From the NCBI RefSeq assembly GCF_002847825.1, contig NZ_PKIZ01000005.1, positions 55,597-119,596 on the forward strand: 64,000 bases of DNA. The letters are read 5' to 3'. The position numbers were made by a program, and so were the translations under genes. The DNA is from Kytococcus schroeteri (lineage in GTDB: Bacteria > Actinomycetota > Actinomycetes > Actinomycetales > Dermatophilaceae). The notes under the pieces were generated by a model that made no database searches, was not told where the DNA came from, and was given only the letters and a program-made list of their open reading frames with translations. Every line of letters begins with the position of its first letter. Within the stretch, counting starts at the first letter, position 1. This document shows, in pieces, positions 12,092 to 54,931 of the stretch.

Positions 12092-12895
12092 TCACGCCTC
12101 CAGCCGGTCGGCGTTGGCGGTGTGCGCGTCCCTGGCGTACGCCGCCAGGCCCTCGGCCACGTCCTCGTAGGTCTGCCGGAAGCGCGGGTCGCTGACGTAC
12201 AGCTCGCCCAGGCCGCGGTGAATCTGCGGGGTGCACTCGTAGAACCAGCGCGTGATGTGCTGGCGGTGGGCCTCGGCGGCGCCCATGGCGCGCTGCGAGG
12301 TGGCGGGCTCACCGGCCCGCATCACCGAGGCGAGGTCGGCCAGCAGCTGATCGGCCTCGGTCTTGATGGCCTCCCAGTCGGCCTTCTCGTAGCGCCGCGT
12401 GCGCTGCTGGGACTCGGCCCACTGCGGGCTGTCGCCCCAGCGCCGCTCGGACTCGGCCTGGTAGTCGTCCAGGTTGTCGGCGAAGGAGTCGCCGAAGATC
12501 TCGCGCTGCTCGGCCCGGCTGATGCGGTAGCCGTGGTTCTCGGTCTCCTGCGGGTGGGTGTTCATCTCGGCCTCCAGTGCCGTGTCGATGGCGTCGAGCA
12601 ACCCGGTCAGCTGCTCGACCTGTCGGATGACCGCCTCGCGACGCTCCCGCAGCCGGTCGGCGACGCCGCCCCCGTCGGCCACCTGCGCGATCTCCTCCAG
12701 GGAGAGGCCCAGGCGCCGCAGGAACACGACCCGCTCGAGGCGGGCCACGTCATCGGCCGTGTACAGCCGGTAGCCGGACCACGACCGGTGCGAGGCACCG
12801 GCGAGGCCCACCTGGTCGTAGTGGTGCAGGGTGCGCACCGTCACGCCGAGGTGCTCGGCCACCTGGCCGACCGTCAGGTCGTCGGAATCGGTCAT
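12092..12895 (-). CDS. MerR-family regulator with TipAS-type ligand domain
   Basis: The 267-residue protein has an N-terminal MerR winged helix (LTVGQVAEHLGVTVRTLHHYDQVGL...GYRLYTADD), a coiled-coil dimerisation helix (~80-115) and a C-terminal TipAS-like domain (~125-265). The latter includes FGDSFADNLDDYQAE, WYE-type aromatics and HITRWFYECTPQIHRGLGELY. TipA proteins bind thiopeptides and other multidrug ligands. ATG 12895 is preferred over GTG 12904 because the latter would overlap the predicted -10 box. Confidence 0.9.
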   Translation of the reverse strand: MTDSDDLTVGQVAEHLGVTVRTLHHYDQVGLAGASHRSWSGYRLYTADDVARLERVVFLRRLGLSLEEIAQVADGGGVADRLRERREAVIRQVEQLTGLLDAIDTALEAEMNTHPQETENHGYRISRAEQREIFGDSFADNLDDYQAESERRWGDSPQWAESQQRTRRYEKADWEAIKTEADQLLADLASVMRAGEPATSQRAMGAAEAHRQHITRWFYECTPQIHRGLGELYVSDPRFRQTYEDVAEGLAAYARDAHTANADRLEA

Positions 12896-12902
12896 GGCCA
12901 CC

Positions 12903-12933
12903 ACTGCACCGCCTCACGTCGCGTCAGGGTCAA
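12903..12933 (-). promoter_or_regulatory. MerR-type autoregulated promoter and operator
   Basis: On the minus strand, -35 TTGACC (12933-12928) and -10-like TGCAGT (12908-12903) are separated by 19 bp, the over-long spacing typical of MerR-activated promoters. A near-perfect inverted repeat CCTGACG-CGA-CGTGAGG (12912-12928, one mismatch) sits at the -35 edge and within the spacer, where MerR dimers bind. The start codon lies 8 bp after the -10, so the transcript is probably leaderless. Confidence 0.7.
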
Positions 12934-13002: not shown

Positions 13003-13106
13003 GCACGGGAAACCGCCCGCCGCACGGGAAAGGTGCCGGCTGCACAGGAAATTTCCCGTGCGGCCAGCACCTTTCCCGTGCCCGGCGAGCCTTCCCGTGT
13101 GGGAAG
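13003..13106. repeat. Symmetric cluster of six 10-bp motifs (GCACGGGAAA / TTTCCCGTGC)
   Basis: Direct copies start at 13003, 13022 and 13042 (the last reads GCACAGGAAA). Inverted copies start at 13052 and 13072, and a partial inverted copy (TTCCCGTG) is at 13092. The array is nearly mirror-symmetric about 13051/13052, and same-strand copies are spaced 19-20 bp apart. Nested stems form: 13022-13036 pairs perfectly with 13067-13081 (15 bp), the inner 13042-13061 is a 20-bp palindrome with one mismatch, and CTTCCC-GTGT-GGGAAG closes the right end. It lies between the topA stop and the MerR promoter. It could be a factor-binding array, a mobile palindromic repeat or an elaborate terminator. Confidence 0.85.
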
Positions 13107-13150: not shown

Positions 13151-16024
13151 TCAGGACTTCTTGCGGGTGCCTGCCTTCACGGTGCGGGTGGTGGTGGAGG
13201 CCGGCTTCTTGCGCGCGGTCGACTTCCCGGACGACTTGGACGCCGCCTTGCGCACCGGCTTCTTCTTCGGCCCCTCGGCACGCTTCTGCGCGAGCAGCTC
13301 GAAGGCCTGCAGCTCCGAGACGTCCTCCGGCCGCATGGAACGCGGCACGGTGACGTTCGTCTCGCCGTCGGTGATGTACGGCCCGAAGCGCCCGTCCTTG
13401 ATGACGACCTTCTTGCCCGAGACCGGGTCCTCGGCGAACTCCGCGAGCGGCGGGTTGGCCGCCGAGCGCCCGCGCCGCTTGGGCTCGGCGTAGATCCTCA
13501 GCGCCTCCTCGAGGGTGACGGTGAAGATCTGCTCCTCGCTGGCCAGCGAGCGCGAGTCCGTGCCCTTCTTGAGGTACGGCCCGTAGCGCCCGTTCTGCGC
13601 GGTGATCTCCGTGCCCGTCTCCGGGTCGGCGCCCACCACGCGCGGCAGCGACAGGATCTTCAGCGCGTCCTCGATGGTCACGGTCCGCACGTCCATGCCC
13701 TGCAGCAGCGAGCCGGTGCGCGGCTTGACGACGTCCTTGCCCGTGCCGGTGGTCTTCTTGCCCTCGGCCTCGAACCGGGCGACGTCCTCGTCGGTGAAGA
13801 CCTCCATGACGTAGGGCCCGTAGCGGCCCGTCTTGGCCACCACGTCGCGACCCGTCTCCGGGTCCTGCCCGAGCACCCGCCCGTCGGAGGCCGCCTCGGA
13901 GAGGTACTGCCGCGCCATCTCGGGCGTCAGCTCGTCCGGCGCGATGTCGTCGGGGATGCTCGCGCGCAGCGGCTTGGCCTCCTCGCCGTCGGCAGCGGAT
14001 CCGGAGCCGGCCCGGGACACGACCTCGGCCCCCTCGGGCACCTCACCGGTGGCCGGGTCGGTGCCGGCCGGCGCGACCTCCTCGACGTACGGGCCGTAGC
14101 GGCCCACGCGCACGACGATGCCGTCACCGATCTCGATGGTGGACACACCCTTGGCGTCGATCTCCCCGAGGTCCTCGACAAGCGCCCGCAGCCCGGCCGC
14201 GTCGGTGGCCTCGTCGCCGAAGTAGAAGCGCTGGAGCCACGCCACCCGGTCCTCCTCGCCGGCGGCGATGCGGTCCAGCCCCTCCTCCATCGAGGCGGTG
14301 AAGTCGTAGTCCACCAGCGTCGGGAAGTGCTTCTCCAGCAGGGTGGTCACGGCGAACGCCAGCCAGGTGGGCACCAGCGCGCTGCCCTGCGTGCGCACGT
14401 AGCCGCGGTCCTGGATGGTGCCGACCGTCGCGGCGTAGGTGGACGGGCGGCCGATGCCCTTCTCCTCCAGCGCCTTCACCAGGGTGGCCTCGGTGTAGCG
14501 CGGCGGCGGAGAGGTCTCGTGGCCCAGCGCCTCCACGCGGGAGGCCTGCAGCGCCTGCCCGGCCGAGAGCTGCGGCAGGCGCGACTCCTTGCCCTTGCCC
14601 CCCTCGGCGGGGGTGGCGCCGTAGCGCTCGGCGTCGCGGCCCTCCTCGTAGGCCGCGAGGAAGCCCCGGAAGGTGATGACCGTGCCCGATGCGGTGAGCT
14701 CGGCGGCCCTCACGGCCTCGCCGCCCACCTGCACTCCGGCCAGCGGCGCGGCGATGCGCACGGTGGCCGTGGAGCCCTTGGCGTCGGCCATCTGCGAGGC
14801 GACCGTGCGCTTCCAGATGAGCTCGTACATGGCGTACTCGCTGCCGCGCAGCTCGCCGGCCACCTGGGCCGGGGTGCGGAAGGTGTCACCGGCCGGGCGG
14901 ATGGCCTCGTGGGCCTCCTGCGCGCCCTTGGCCTTCTTGCCGTACACGCGCGGGGAGTCCGGCACGTACTCGGCACCGTACAGGTCGCGGGCCTGCTGGC
15001 GGGCGGCGGTGATGGCCGACTGCGACAGCGTGGTCGAGTCGGTACGCATGTAGGTGATGTAGCCGTTCTCGTACAGGCGCTGCGCCACGCGCATGGCGTC
15101 CTTGGAGCCCAGGCGCAGCTTGCGGCTGGCCTCCTGCTGCAGCGTGGAGGTGATGAACGGCGCCGCGGGCCTGCGGGTGTACGGCTTCTCGCTGACGTCG
15201 CTGACGCTCACGTCCGCGGCCTCGATGCCGGTGGCGACGGCCTCGGCATCGGCCTGCTGCAGGTGGGTCACCTGCGTGCCGGACTTGAGCTGCCCGGCAT
15301 CGGTGAAGTCGCGGCCGGTGGCCACGCGGGTGCCGTCGAGGCTGGTGAGACGCGCGGTGAACTGGCGGTCGCCGGCGGGGGCGAGGTCGGCCTCGACGTC
15401 CCAGTAGGAGGCGATCTTGAAGGCCATGCGGGCGCGCTCGCGCTCCACCACCAGGCGGGTGGCCACGGACTGCACGCGACCGGCCGACAGGCCCTGCTTG
15501 ACCTTGCGCCACAGCACCGGAGAGACCTCGTAGCCGTAGAGGCGGTCGAGGATGCGGCGAGACTCCTGGGCGTCGACCATGCGGTCATCCAGGTCGCGGG
15601 TGTTGTTCACCGCGGCCTGGATGGCTTCCTTGGTGATCTCGTGGAAGACCATGCGCTTCACGGGCACCTTGGGCTTGAGCGCCTGCAGCAGGTGCCAGGC
15701 GATGGCCTCGCCCTCCCGGTCCTCGTCGGTGGCGAGGTAGAGCTCGTCGGCCTCCTTGAGGGCCTTGCGCAGCTCGGTGACCTTCTTCTTCTTGTCCGGG
15801 TCGACCACGTAGAAGGGGTCGAAGCCGTTGTCCACGTCCACGGCGAACTTGCCGTAGGGGCCCTTCTTCATGTCCGCGGGGAGCTCGCTGGGCGTCGGCA
15901 GGTCGCGGATGTGACCGACACTGGCCTCCACGCGGTACTCGTCTCCCAGGTACTGGCCGATGGACTTGACCTTGGTGGGCGACTCGACGATGACGAGCTT
16001 GCTGCCCTTGGCTGCCGGGGACAT
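13151..16024 (-). CDS. topA: DNA topoisomerase I
   Basis: Relaxes negative supercoils by single-strand passage. The 957-residue protein has the TOPRIM domain (KLVIVESPTKVKSIGQYLG; acidic triad region ATDEDREGEAIAWHL), the catalytic YMRTDS (Tyr325), and GLSAGRVQSVATRL. Zinc fingers are absent. Instead there are four actinobacterial-type C-terminal repeats, each with GR(Y/F)GPY, and a Lys/Ser/Thr-rich basic tail of about 40 residues that in relatives aids DNA binding. ATG 16024 lies behind AAGGAGTCGC. Confidence 0.97.
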   Translation of the reverse strand: MSPAAKGSKLVIVESPTKVKSIGQYLGDEYRVEASVGHIRDLPTPSELPADMKKGPYGKFAVDVDNGFDPFYVVDPDKKKKVTELRKALKEADELYLATDEDREGEAIAWHLLQALKPKVPVKRMVFHEITKEAIQAAVNNTRDLDDRMVDAQESRRILDRLYGYEVSPVLWRKVKQGLSAGRVQSVATRLVVERERARMAFKIASYWDVEADLAPAGDRQFTARLTSLDGTRVATGRDFTDAGQLKSGTQVTHLQQADAEAVATGIEAADVSVSDVSEKPYTRRPAAPFITSTLQQEASRKLRLGSKDAMRVAQRLYENGYITYMRTDSTTLSQSAITAARQQARDLYGAEYVPDSPRVYGKKAKGAQEAHEAIRPAGDTFRTPAQVAGELRGSEYAMYELIWKRTVASQMADAKGSTATVRIAAPLAGVQVGGEAVRAAELTASGTVITFRGFLAAYEEGRDAERYGATPAEGGKGKESRLPQLSAGQALQASRVEALGHETSPPPRYTEATLVKALEEKGIGRPSTYAATVGTIQDRGYVRTQGSALVPTWLAFAVTTLLEKHFPTLVDYDFTASMEEGLDRIAAGEEDRVAWLQRFYFGDEATDAAGLRALVEDLGEIDAKGVSTIEIGDGIVVRVGRYGPYVEEVAPAGTDPATGEVPEGAEVVSRAGSGSAADGEEAKPLRASIPDDIAPDELTPEMARQYLSEAASDGRVLGQDPETGRDVVAKTGRYGPYVMEVFTDEDVARFEAEGKKTTGTGKDVVKPRTGSLLQGMDVRTVTIEDALKILSLPRVVGADPETGTEITAQNGRYGPYLKKGTDSRSLASEEQIFTVTLEEALRIYAEPKRRGRSAANPPLAEFAEDPVSGKKVVIKDGRFGPYITDGETNVTVPRSMRPEDVSELQAFELLAQKRAEGPKKKPVRKAASKSSGKSTARKKPASTTTRTVKAGTRKKS

Positions 16025-16600: not shown

Positions 16601-16636
16601 AGAGGCATGAGAGGCATGAGAGGCATGAGAGGCATG
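16601..16636 (+). repeat. Four perfect copies of a 9-bp tandem repeat (AGAGGCATG)
   Basis: Units at 16601, 16610, 16619 and 16628 are identical. Each carries an AGAGG Shine-Dalgarno-like stretch and an in-frame ATG, and encodes Arg-Gly-Met at the N-terminus of the secreted protease gene. Confidence 0.95.
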
Positions 16637-42961: not shown

Positions 42962-43006
42962 CGCAGGGAGGGCGGGCACCCCATCGGGGTGCCCGCCCTC
43001 CCTGCG
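42962..43006. terminator. Very strong bidirectional terminator
   Basis: A perfect 21-bp stem (42962-42982 with 42986-43006) with a 3-nt loop between convergent genes. Confidence 0.9.
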
Positions 43007-52531: not shown

Positions 52532-54931
52532 CTATGCCTGGTCCGTGTGTTCCTCGATCACGGTTCCACCGAGGATCTTCTCGATGGCGGCCGTGCCGAT
52601 GACGCCCACGGACTCCACGGTCTCGTCGTCCAGGTCGGGCGTGAAGTCGTCCTCCGGCGGCGGCTCCTCCTCGGGCGGGGGCTCGTCGCCGCCCACCGGG
52701 CCGGGGGGCGTCGGCGCACCGCCCTCCCTCGATGCCGGGGGCCCGGCCTGGTTGCCCGGGCCGCCGCTGCCCGATGCGGTGGGCCCGCCACCGGGTGCCG
52801 AGGGGGCCACCTGCGGGGCCGGGGCGTCCGCCGTGGCCCAGTCCGGGGCGGCGTCGCTGCGCTGCCCCCACTCGGGGGAACCCACCGGCCCCGCGGCACC
52901 GCCGGATCGACCCGCCGGACCGCCGGTGAAGCCACCCCCGCCGCCGGGGGCCACCTGGGCCGCCACGGACGGCGCGGACGGAGCGGACGGAGCGGCAGGT
53001 CCCCCCATCGGGCCGGGGGCACCGGCGCCCGGGCCACCGGCGGCACCGGGACCACCCGCAGCACCCCGGCCGCCGACCACGCAGCGGACCCGCGGGGTGA
53101 ACCCGAGCGCCTCCTGCACGGCCGCCGCCACGCGCTGGGCGTTGTCGCCGCGGTTGAAGCGCTCGGCGATCGGCGGCACCTCGGTGCTCAGCGTGAGGCC
53201 CTCGGCGCTCAGCTCGACCACCTGCATGGACTGCGACACCATCGCCCAGGTCACGCGACTGATGCCCTTGAGGCGGTCCAGCACCTGCGGCCACTCGTGG
53301 CGCAGCGTCTCCACCGGCACCGGGGCGACACCGGGGGCGTCGCCTCTCGCTGCCGCCGGCTCCTGTGCCGCCGACGCCCCCACCGTTGAGTCGTCGCTCG
53401 TCGGGGTCGACGGACGCTCCTGACCCCCAGAAGCGACGACTCGTTGAGGCTGACGCCCCTCAGTCGCCGGGGCCTCCTGCTGCGCAGCCTCCAGGCGGGC
53501 TCCCTGCTGCGGGGCAGCGGCATCCTGTCGCGGGACAGCGGCCTCCCGCACCGGCTCCGACCGCTGCGGCGCGGGGCTCTCCTGCACGGGCGCGGCCGCG
53601 GGCGCCTCCGCCCCCGTCTCCCGCACCGTTGAGTCGTCGCTCGTCGGGGTCGACGGACGCTCCTGACCCCCAGAAGCGACGACTCGTTGCACCGGCGCCT
53701 CCTGCTGCACCGGTGCCCCCTGGGCCGGGGCACCCTGCTGCGAGGTCTGCTGAACCGGCGCCGCGTCGCCTCGGAAGGCCATCCACCGCTCCACCTTCTC
53801 CAGCCGCGCGGCGAACCCGCCCTCGCCCGCGGCCCGCGGCAGCAGCAGCCGCGCCATGATGATCTCCAGCTGCAGCCGCGGCGAGGTCGCCCCCGTCATC
53901 TCCGCCAGGCCGCGGAAGAGCACGTCCGAGGCCCGCGAGAGCTCGGCCGCCCCCAACCCGCTGGCCTGCTGGCGCAGCCGCTCCAGCTGGTCGTCCGGCA
54001 CCCCGGGCAGCACCGCCTCGGTGCCGGTGGGCACGGCGTCCACGAGGATGAGGTCACGCATCCGCTCGGAGAGGTCCTCCACGAAACGGCGCGGGTCCTG
54101 CCCGGAGCCCACCACCCGCTCCACGGTGGTGAACAGCGACGCCCCGTCGCCGGCGGCGTAGGCGTCCACCACCCCGTCCAGCAGCTCAGTGTCGGTGAAG
54201 CCCAGCAGCGCCGTGGTGCCGGCCAGGGTGATGCCCTCGTCCCCGGACCCGGCGATGAGCTGGTCGAGCACCGACATCGAGTCACGCACCGACCCCCCGC
54301 CGGCGCGCACCACGTACGAGAGCACCCCCGGCTCCACGGCGATGCCCTCGCGCCCGCACACCTCGCCCAGGTACTCCTGCAGCACGGTGGGCGGCACCAG
54401 CCGGAAGGGGTAGTGGTGCGTGCGCGACCGGATGGTGCCGATGACCTTCTCCGGCTCCGTGGTGGCGAAGATGAAGAGCACGTGCTCCGGCGGCTCCTCC
54501 ACGATCTTGAGCAGCGCGTTGAAGCCCGCCGAGGTCACCATGTGCGCCTCGTCGATGATGTAGACCTTGTAGCGCGAGTTCGCCGGCCCGAAGGACGCCT
54601 TCTCACGCAGGTCGCGGGCGTCGTCCACGCCACCGTGGCTCGCCGCGTCGATCTCGATGACGTCCACCGAGCCCGCGCCGCCGGTGGCCAGGTCACGACA
54701 GGACCGGCACTCGCCGCAGGGGGTGTCCGTGGGGCCCTTCTCGCAGTTGAGGCAGCGCGCCAGGATGCGGGCGCTCGTGGTCTTGCCGCAGCCGCGCGGG
54801 CCGGAGAAGAGGTAGGCGTGGTTGACCCGCCCGGTGGCCAGGGCCCGCTGCAGCGGGACGGTCACGTGCTCCTGACCCACCACCTCGGCGAAGGTCTGCG
54901 GGCGGTAGCGGCGGTACAGGGCGGTGCTCAC
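52532..54931 (-). CDS. dnaX: DNA polymerase III gamma/tau subunit
   Basis: The 799-residue clamp-loader ATPase has [18 protein letters not shown], Walker [11 protein letters not shown], zinc module (C-LNC-EKG...CGECRSC), YIIDEAHM and sensor [11 protein letters not shown]. Domains I-III end about residue 375. A linker of about 170 residues rich in Ala/Pro/Gln contains two identical 22-residue segments. A tau-specific domain (~545-620, [18 protein letters not shown]) and a Gly/Pro-rich acidic tail follow. GTG 54931. The region upstream carries the SRP RNA gene. Confidence 0.96.
53381..53446. repeat. 66-bp in-frame hairpin repeat in dnaX, copy A
   Basis: Exactly 22 codons, identical in all 66 bases to copy B. 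The core 53388-53442 folds as an 11-bp stem (GAGTCGTCGCT/AGCGACGACTC), a 4x4 internal loop, a 6-bp stem (GGGGTC/GACCCC) and a 13-nt loop. It encodes a segment beginning [10 protein letters not shown] and ending TSDDSTV. Confidence 0.95.
53624..53689. repeat. 66-bp in-frame hairpin repeat in dnaX, copy B
   Basis: Second identical copy, offset by exactly 243 bp (81 codons); hairpin core 53631-53685. Flanking sequences of the two copies are unrelated. Confidence 0.95.

Follow-up and report, generated by a model that had tools for sequence, protein, structure and literature searches.

A 66-bp palindromic repeat present twice in frame in the dnaX linker of a Kytococcus-like actinobacterium

The dnaX gene and its paired 66-bp repeat

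The window (the whole stretch of DNA that was analysed, 64 kb) carries on its minus strand a dnaX gene, within whose linker lie two copies of a 66-bp repeat. The features of the locus are as follows.

52532..54931, minus strand: dnaX, DNA polymerase III gamma/tau subunit, GTG start, 799 residues, named from Pfam and Kytococcus relatives
53294..53836, minus strand: linker joining domain III to the C-terminal tau part, fast-evolving and Q/A/P/E-rich, approximately 181 residues
53624..53689, minus strand: 66-bp repeat, copy 1 in gene order, codons 415-436, encoding a 22-residue peptide
53381..53446, minus strand: 66-bp repeat, copy 2 in gene order, codons 496-517, same peptide as copy 1
53631..53685, no strand assigned: 55-bp hairpin core of the copy at 53624, stem-loop as in the other copy
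53388..53442, no strand assigned: 55-bp hairpin core of the copy at 53381, stem-loop as in the other copy
53591..53623, minus strand: 33 nt on the 3′ side (gene sense) of the copy at 53624, 73% identical to 53348-53380
53348..53380, minus strand: 33 nt on the 3′ side (gene sense) of the copy at 53381, a possible trace of a longer duplication

The dnaX product matches the Pfam families DNA_pol3_delta2 (8e-41) and DNA_pol3_gamma3 (1.3e-14). Among the matches listed its best relatives are Kytococcus proteins, and none of the 120 matches listed is a near-identical DnaX. Whole-protein alignment reveals 73 to 77% identity to five Kytococcus-type DnaX proteins (P0002 to P0006), and over the first 409 residues identity to the K. 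sedentarius protein (G219) is 91%. The neighbouring LytR_C protein is 92% identical to a metagenome protein (P0122) and 75% to that of K. sedentarius. Judged by sequence, the host of the window is Kytococcus-like.

The borders of the linker were set from motifs in an alignment of eight DnaX proteins and are approximate. Blastn similarity to K. sedentarius ends at 53335 and restarts at 53754, leaving a gap from 53336 to 53753. DnaX linkers are hypervariable and do not align with one another, so that an empty insertion site for the 66-mer is not demonstrable. The linker of the window has 181 residues, versus 180 in K. sedentarius, which places it at the 72nd percentile of the 121 measurable linkers among the 133 described below. 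Its composition suggests that it is disordered.

The earlier note on this DNA described the two copies as identical and as beginning and ending on codon boundaries, and both statements hold: the copies agree in 66/66 bp with no extension of the match on either side, and each occupies 22 codons of dnaX in frame. The pair is the only exact direct repeat of at least 24 bp in the 64 kb besides a 27-bp tandem stretch at 16601. Four of the six reading frames of the 66-mer are open, including all three on the coding strand and one on the other. The repeat peptide is absent from the five Kytococcus-type DnaX proteins. The codons TCT, TCA, and GCT had been noted as rare; this is true of the first two, which, like CAA, have no occurrence in the remainder of dnaX, whereas GCT is only uncommon (six in the remainder). 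Codons ending in A or T make up 7/22 of the 66-mer versus 53/756 in the rest of dnaX (binomial p 6e-4) and 17/175 in the remaining linker.

Each copy folds as originally claimed, with an 11-bp stem, a 4x4 internal loop, a 6-bp stem, and a 13-nt loop. The fold energy is below that of all 200 shuffles (z of -4.1 and -4.4 for the two strands), and the stem has an energy of approximately -38 kcal/mol on the coding strand. The unpaired ends of the 66-mer on this strand are CAAC and AACGGTG; these 11 bases outside the hairpin have also been copied, and the repeated unit is thus more than the palindrome alone. The pentamer CAACG occurs on both sides of the hairpin and is the same in both copies, which seems unlike two independent target-site duplications; local copying of one insertion could also yield this arrangement. 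The bases just outside the 66-mer differ immediately between the copies.

The flanks had been called unrelated. This stands for the upstream side, where identity is 40 to 55% (p 0.08 to 0.57), and is doubtful for the downstream side, where 24/33 nt are identical. Such a value is attained by 0.05% of in-frame linker pairs (p 0.0005), with the flank length of 33 nt chosen post hoc and p ranging from 0.002 to 0.046 at other lengths. The downstream likeness hints at a longer, older duplication, of which 66 bp might have been kept identical by conversion.

Searches for further copies

No third copy of the 66-mer was found in the 64-kb window, plasmids, phages, viral contigs, a collection of 84,980 species, or 186 genomes of the family. 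The earlier note had seen in the 66-mer an element that spread, for which these searches provide no support so far. It had also named occurrence nowhere else as one half of what would speak against its own interpretation, and nowhere else is indeed where the 66-mer occurs within everything searched. As far as searched, then, the 66-mer is found in this dnaX only. Some tens of copies may still be compatible with this result, since the window covers 64 kb of a genome of perhaps 2.4 to 2.8 Mb, as in relatives.

A blast-type search of the 186 family genomes with the 66-mer gave partial matches only, the best being 80% identical over positions 2-50. Matches at E up to 1 were present in 185/186 of these genomes, which is the background level; the best values in K. 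sedentarius (E 0.086) and K. aerolatus (E 0.04) are not better than this background. Matches to the repeat peptide at E up to 1 occurred in 54/186 genomes, none of them better than 0.05. Plasmid and phage records yielded fragments of the 66-mer only (best E 2 and 0.5). Comparison of the four open frames at the protein level, for which the candidates were proteins of approximately 142 to 451 residues only, gave no hit at E 10 among 7997 scored candidates.

Several candidates were discarded. A pattern of 20 fixed bases had one match among the 84,980 species, located in a Solirubrobacterales bin (L001); it is without the second arm and is regarded as chance. The second arm is also missing from a viral contig (L248) retrieved with a looser half pattern. 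A pattern comprising the arms only matched in 11 of 396 genomes of the order, at one place each, and its reversed control in three genomes; the inner GGGGTC arm is present in 0/11 of these matches, and four have near-identical sequence between the arms. A linker peptide in SucA of some relatives, GGLERPSAQTADDATV, was considered as a relative of the element peptide and set aside at chance level (E 0.095, one of 186 genomes). The proteins in question (L055 and L041) are, by eye, 2-oxoglutarate dehydrogenase E1; the linker GGLERPSAQTADDATV of one relative resembles the repeat peptide.

dnaX linkers across the Dermatophilaceae

Matches to dnaX at the search cut-off were present in 176/186 family genomes. 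The gene was collected from 132 of the 186, some genes being cut by contig ends, and the addition of the window gave 133. Each linker was characterized by its longest exact direct repeat, with L116 left out where it has a run of N. This repeat measures 10 to 19 bp in 105/133 linkers, and exact internal repeats of at least 20 bp are found in 24/133 (the window counted, the N-run left out). Repeats of at least 42 bp occur in four linkers: L133 (147 bp), L032 (76 bp), the window (66 bp), and L167 (42 bp), the N-run of L116 being excluded.

The linkers of L133, L032, and L167 share a single palindromic repeat as their building block, with GGTCGAGTAG at one end and CTCGATACC, or a sequence close to it, at the other. 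Four 9-base motifs taken from it are found in 7/133 linkers (L032, L034, L107, L133, L155, L167, and L169), versus 1/133 for the letter-reversed control. They are present in 0/133 of the N-terminal parts of dnaX, where the reversed control is uninformative because of a conserved string common to 78/133 genes. The GGTCGAGTA end of the repeat lies in the same reading frame in 6/7 linkers, and the linker of L133 additionally has the repeat in the opposite orientation. Of the seven carrier genomes, five are near relatives of one another (87 to 94% in N-terminal dnaX DNA), so that independent captures of the repeat number perhaps three. None of the four motifs occurs in the linker of the window, and a sequence shared with the GGTCGAGTAG repeat was thus not found there.

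The stretches derived from the repeat are rich in A/T third positions, at 22/32 in L032 versus 98/653 elsewhere in the gene and 34/58 in L133 versus 74/652. The excess is clear in 5/6 of the dnaX genes tested, with p 0.06 for L169, bearing in mind that repeated copies within a gene are not independent in these tests.

At genome scale, six of the carrier genomes contain 1, 7, 12, 21, 35, and 57 places that match a half-element pattern of GGTCGAGTAG, some of the 35 overlapping one another. These six were selected because their dnaX carries the repeat, so that no hotspot rate is derivable from the counts. The pattern has 0 places in the K. sedentarius and K. aerolatus genomes, and its reversed form 0 places in all eight genomes searched. 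Thirty places were taken as loci, and 15 of these are without a coding-like frame as judged by third-position G+C. The repeat is in frame in 6/8 of the reading frames then inspected, L217 and L225 being uncounted. Among the six loci concerned (L208, L212, L213, L226, L229, and L237), one encodes an alpha/beta hydrolase in which insert copies follow one another in a run, another an S9 peptidase that has three of them, and another an AftD-like protein with a Pfam match at the cut-off and a second match below it. The remaining three products, two of which are alike, have no Pfam family. The GGTCGAGTAG...CTCGATACC palindrome is dispersed in its carrier genomes and lies in frame in DnaX linkers, often as several local copies.

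Two other features of dnaX were encountered in this collection. The 3′ part of the gene of another relative (L037:3565-3753) contains tandem 21-bp repeats, CGCGAAACGTCACCAAATCCT. The open frames that span dnaX in L144 (G273) and L158 (G295) reach 1613 and 1786 codons, approximately twice the usual length.

Origin of the 66-mer and comparison with known elements

We lean, without much assurance, toward the reading that the 66-mer is a short palindromic repeat that the presumably disordered DnaX linker acquired in frame and that was then copied locally. A hairpin element resembling REPs or RPEs would have entered the linker in this Kytococcus lineage after the split from K. sedentarius and K. 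aerolatus; an unstructured linker, together with an element that is open in the frame used, would explain why it is tolerated. The additional copy would be recent and of short range, having arisen via hairpin-assisted template switching, gene conversion, or a second insertion. In-frame capture is plausible because four of the six frames are open and the linker, by its composition, seems unstructured. The reading draws on the 66-bp identity with its sharp ends, the hairpin beyond that of shuffled sequences, the A/T third positions, the four open frames, and the absence of the peptide from P0002 to P0006. It also draws on the GGTCGAGTAG palindrome, which provides a parallel in the same linker that is in frame, dispersed, and similarly rich in A/T third positions. 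Membership of the 66-mer in a family dispersed in its own genome, its mode of movement, and its lack of function in DnaX are what we infer. The palindromic-element interpretation of the earlier note is hence upheld in part, by the palindrome, the unusual codons, the frame, the linker site, and the absence above background from two Kytococcus genomes, and not with respect to spread.

Several observations argue against capture. There is no third copy in anything searched, the downstream flanks are more alike than expected by chance, the linker does not exceed its K. sedentarius counterpart in length, and the repeated unit extends beyond the palindrome. The GGTCGAGTAG family, moreover, is unrelated in sequence and was not found in two Kytococcus genomes, and it likewise yielded no empty site. 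The main rival is a local event in which a native linker stretch, palindromic by chance, was part of a block of approximately 100 bp that was duplicated, with 66 bp conserved by conversion or template switching and no mobile family involved. We consider this rather unlikely, though well worth weighing. It accounts for the lack of copies outside dnaX in any collection searched and for the 73% identity of the downstream 33 nt, and it is congruent with the unchanged linker length relative to K. sedentarius and with the finding that exact internal repeats of at least 20 bp are not rare in DnaX linkers (24/133). It does not account for the strong hairpin with rare codons, since a 55-bp hairpin beyond all shuffles is unexpected in the linker of a gene with 74% G+C. 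It would, furthermore, require a sharp-edged conversion to leave the 66 bp without a difference next to 33 nt that differ at 9 positions, and the longest repeats of the other linkers are captured palindromes.

Hairpins that act in frameshifting are known from dnaX of other bacteria, and a stem of approximately -38 kcal/mol on the coding strand would suit an mRNA structure that stimulates frameshifting to the short gamma form. No heptamer of the type X XXY YYZ is found in frame between 120 nt before copy 1 and 54 nt past copy 2, however, and a selected function appears improbable. The same applies to the variant in which the 66 bp encode a duplicated binding peptide: this peptide is missing from the five other Kytococcus-type DnaX proteins, and selection on a peptide would not be expected to produce exact synonymous identity. 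The perfect identity of the copies might also be taken as an assembly or library artefact that pasted 66 bp twice. We regard this as the most improbable explanation, for the frame is kept in both copies, the surrounding sequence diverges at once on either side, and we know of no adaptor sequence that the 66-mer matches.

If capture is the correct reading, the 66-mer would work like RPE, REP, or MITE elements. RPEs are dispersed in Rickettsia genomes (PMC2694212), where many genes contain one in frame (PMC10969869, PMC2229807). The likeness consists in palindromic repeats that lie in frame in genes for conserved proteins and add a peptide (PMC10969869, PMC2229807, PMC3733652), as the 66-mer would on the capture reading; the 66-mer, too, is palindromic with a stable stem-loop. 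Two reviews give the length of RPEs as 105-146 bp or approximately 150 bp (PMC10969869, PMC2229807). The 66-mer is below this range of 105-150 bp, but its 22 residues are close to the intragenic inserts of 20 to 30 residues (dimers or groups) that have been equated with RPE-4 and RPE-6 (PMC3733652). RPEs further comprise several dispersed families in many unrelated genes, whereas the 66-mer has two known copies in one actinobacterial gene.

Intragenic REPs occur in species of several phyla; many are in replication and repair genes, some open reading frames have two inserts, the encoded segments are often 20 to 30 residues long, and flexible linkers have been proposed as neutral sites for them (PMC3733652). 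The 66-mer resembles these GTAG- or CGTC-tagged REPs as a hairpin repeat in the coding region of a replication gene, with two copies in the open reading frame and a linker as its site. A single REP measures 20-40 bp and has one of its ends marked by an unpaired GTAG or CGTC tag (PMC3733652); the 66-mer, at 66 bp and with neither tag at its ends, differs from them. Its size fits a REP dimer (22 versus 20-30 residues) and its arms are inverted, but no tagged unit was identified. Neither dnaX nor the word Actinobacteria appears in the main text of PMC3733652. Untagged REP-like families of M. tuberculosis are mentioned there, however, so that the phylum is already known to contain palindromic repeats in general (PMC3733652). 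Bacterial MITEs (ERIC, Correia, and RUP) are likewise short, have inverted repeats, and in some cases are fused in frame with genes (PMC2229807). They mostly possess terminal inverted repeats, target-site duplications, and TA ends (PMC2229807), whereas the CAACG of the 66-mer is the same in both copies.

The GGTCGAGTAG...CTCGATACC repeat of Dermatophilaceae shares with the 66-mer the DnaX linker, the reading in frame, the A/T third positions, and local multiplication. It differs in its unrelated sequence, its shorter unit (approximately 45 bp in L155), and its dispersal in its genomes. Searches of the open-licence literature turned up no account of the 66-mer or the GGTCGAGTAG repeat, and none of palindromes within dnaX.

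Rickettsia provides known cases of palindromes in protein genes, and so do intragenic REPs, which strikingly often affect replication and repair genes (PMC3733652). The same seems to occur in actinobacteria, with at least two unrelated palindromes in one defined clamp-loader linker. Such linkers form a natural series for asking how elements of this type enter, keep the frame, and multiply, and they raise the question of whether replication genes are targeted through tolerance or through a gain to the elements. As a tentative proposal, to which we give somewhat less than even credence, the DnaX linker of Dermatophilaceae-type actinobacteria may be a recurrent sink for unrelated palindrome families, with entry in frame and local multiplication, the 66-mer being Kytococcus's own undescribed protein-invading palindrome. 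Were the linker such a sink, an essential replication protein would carry selfish DNA in its sequence in several lineages.

Other repeats and stems are present in the window. At 16601-16636 there are four exact repeats of a 9-bp tandem unit, AGAGGCATG. A stem of 21 bp with a 3-nt loop, perfect and terminator-like, is located at 42962-43006 and is the longest perfect stem listed (stems of at least 10 bp, loops up to approximately 60). At 13003-13081, units of the GCACGGGAAA type face inverted units and form a perfect 15-bp stem; this region lies between genes named by eye as a MerR-like regulator (12092-12904, minus strand) and a topA-like gene (13151-16024, minus strand).
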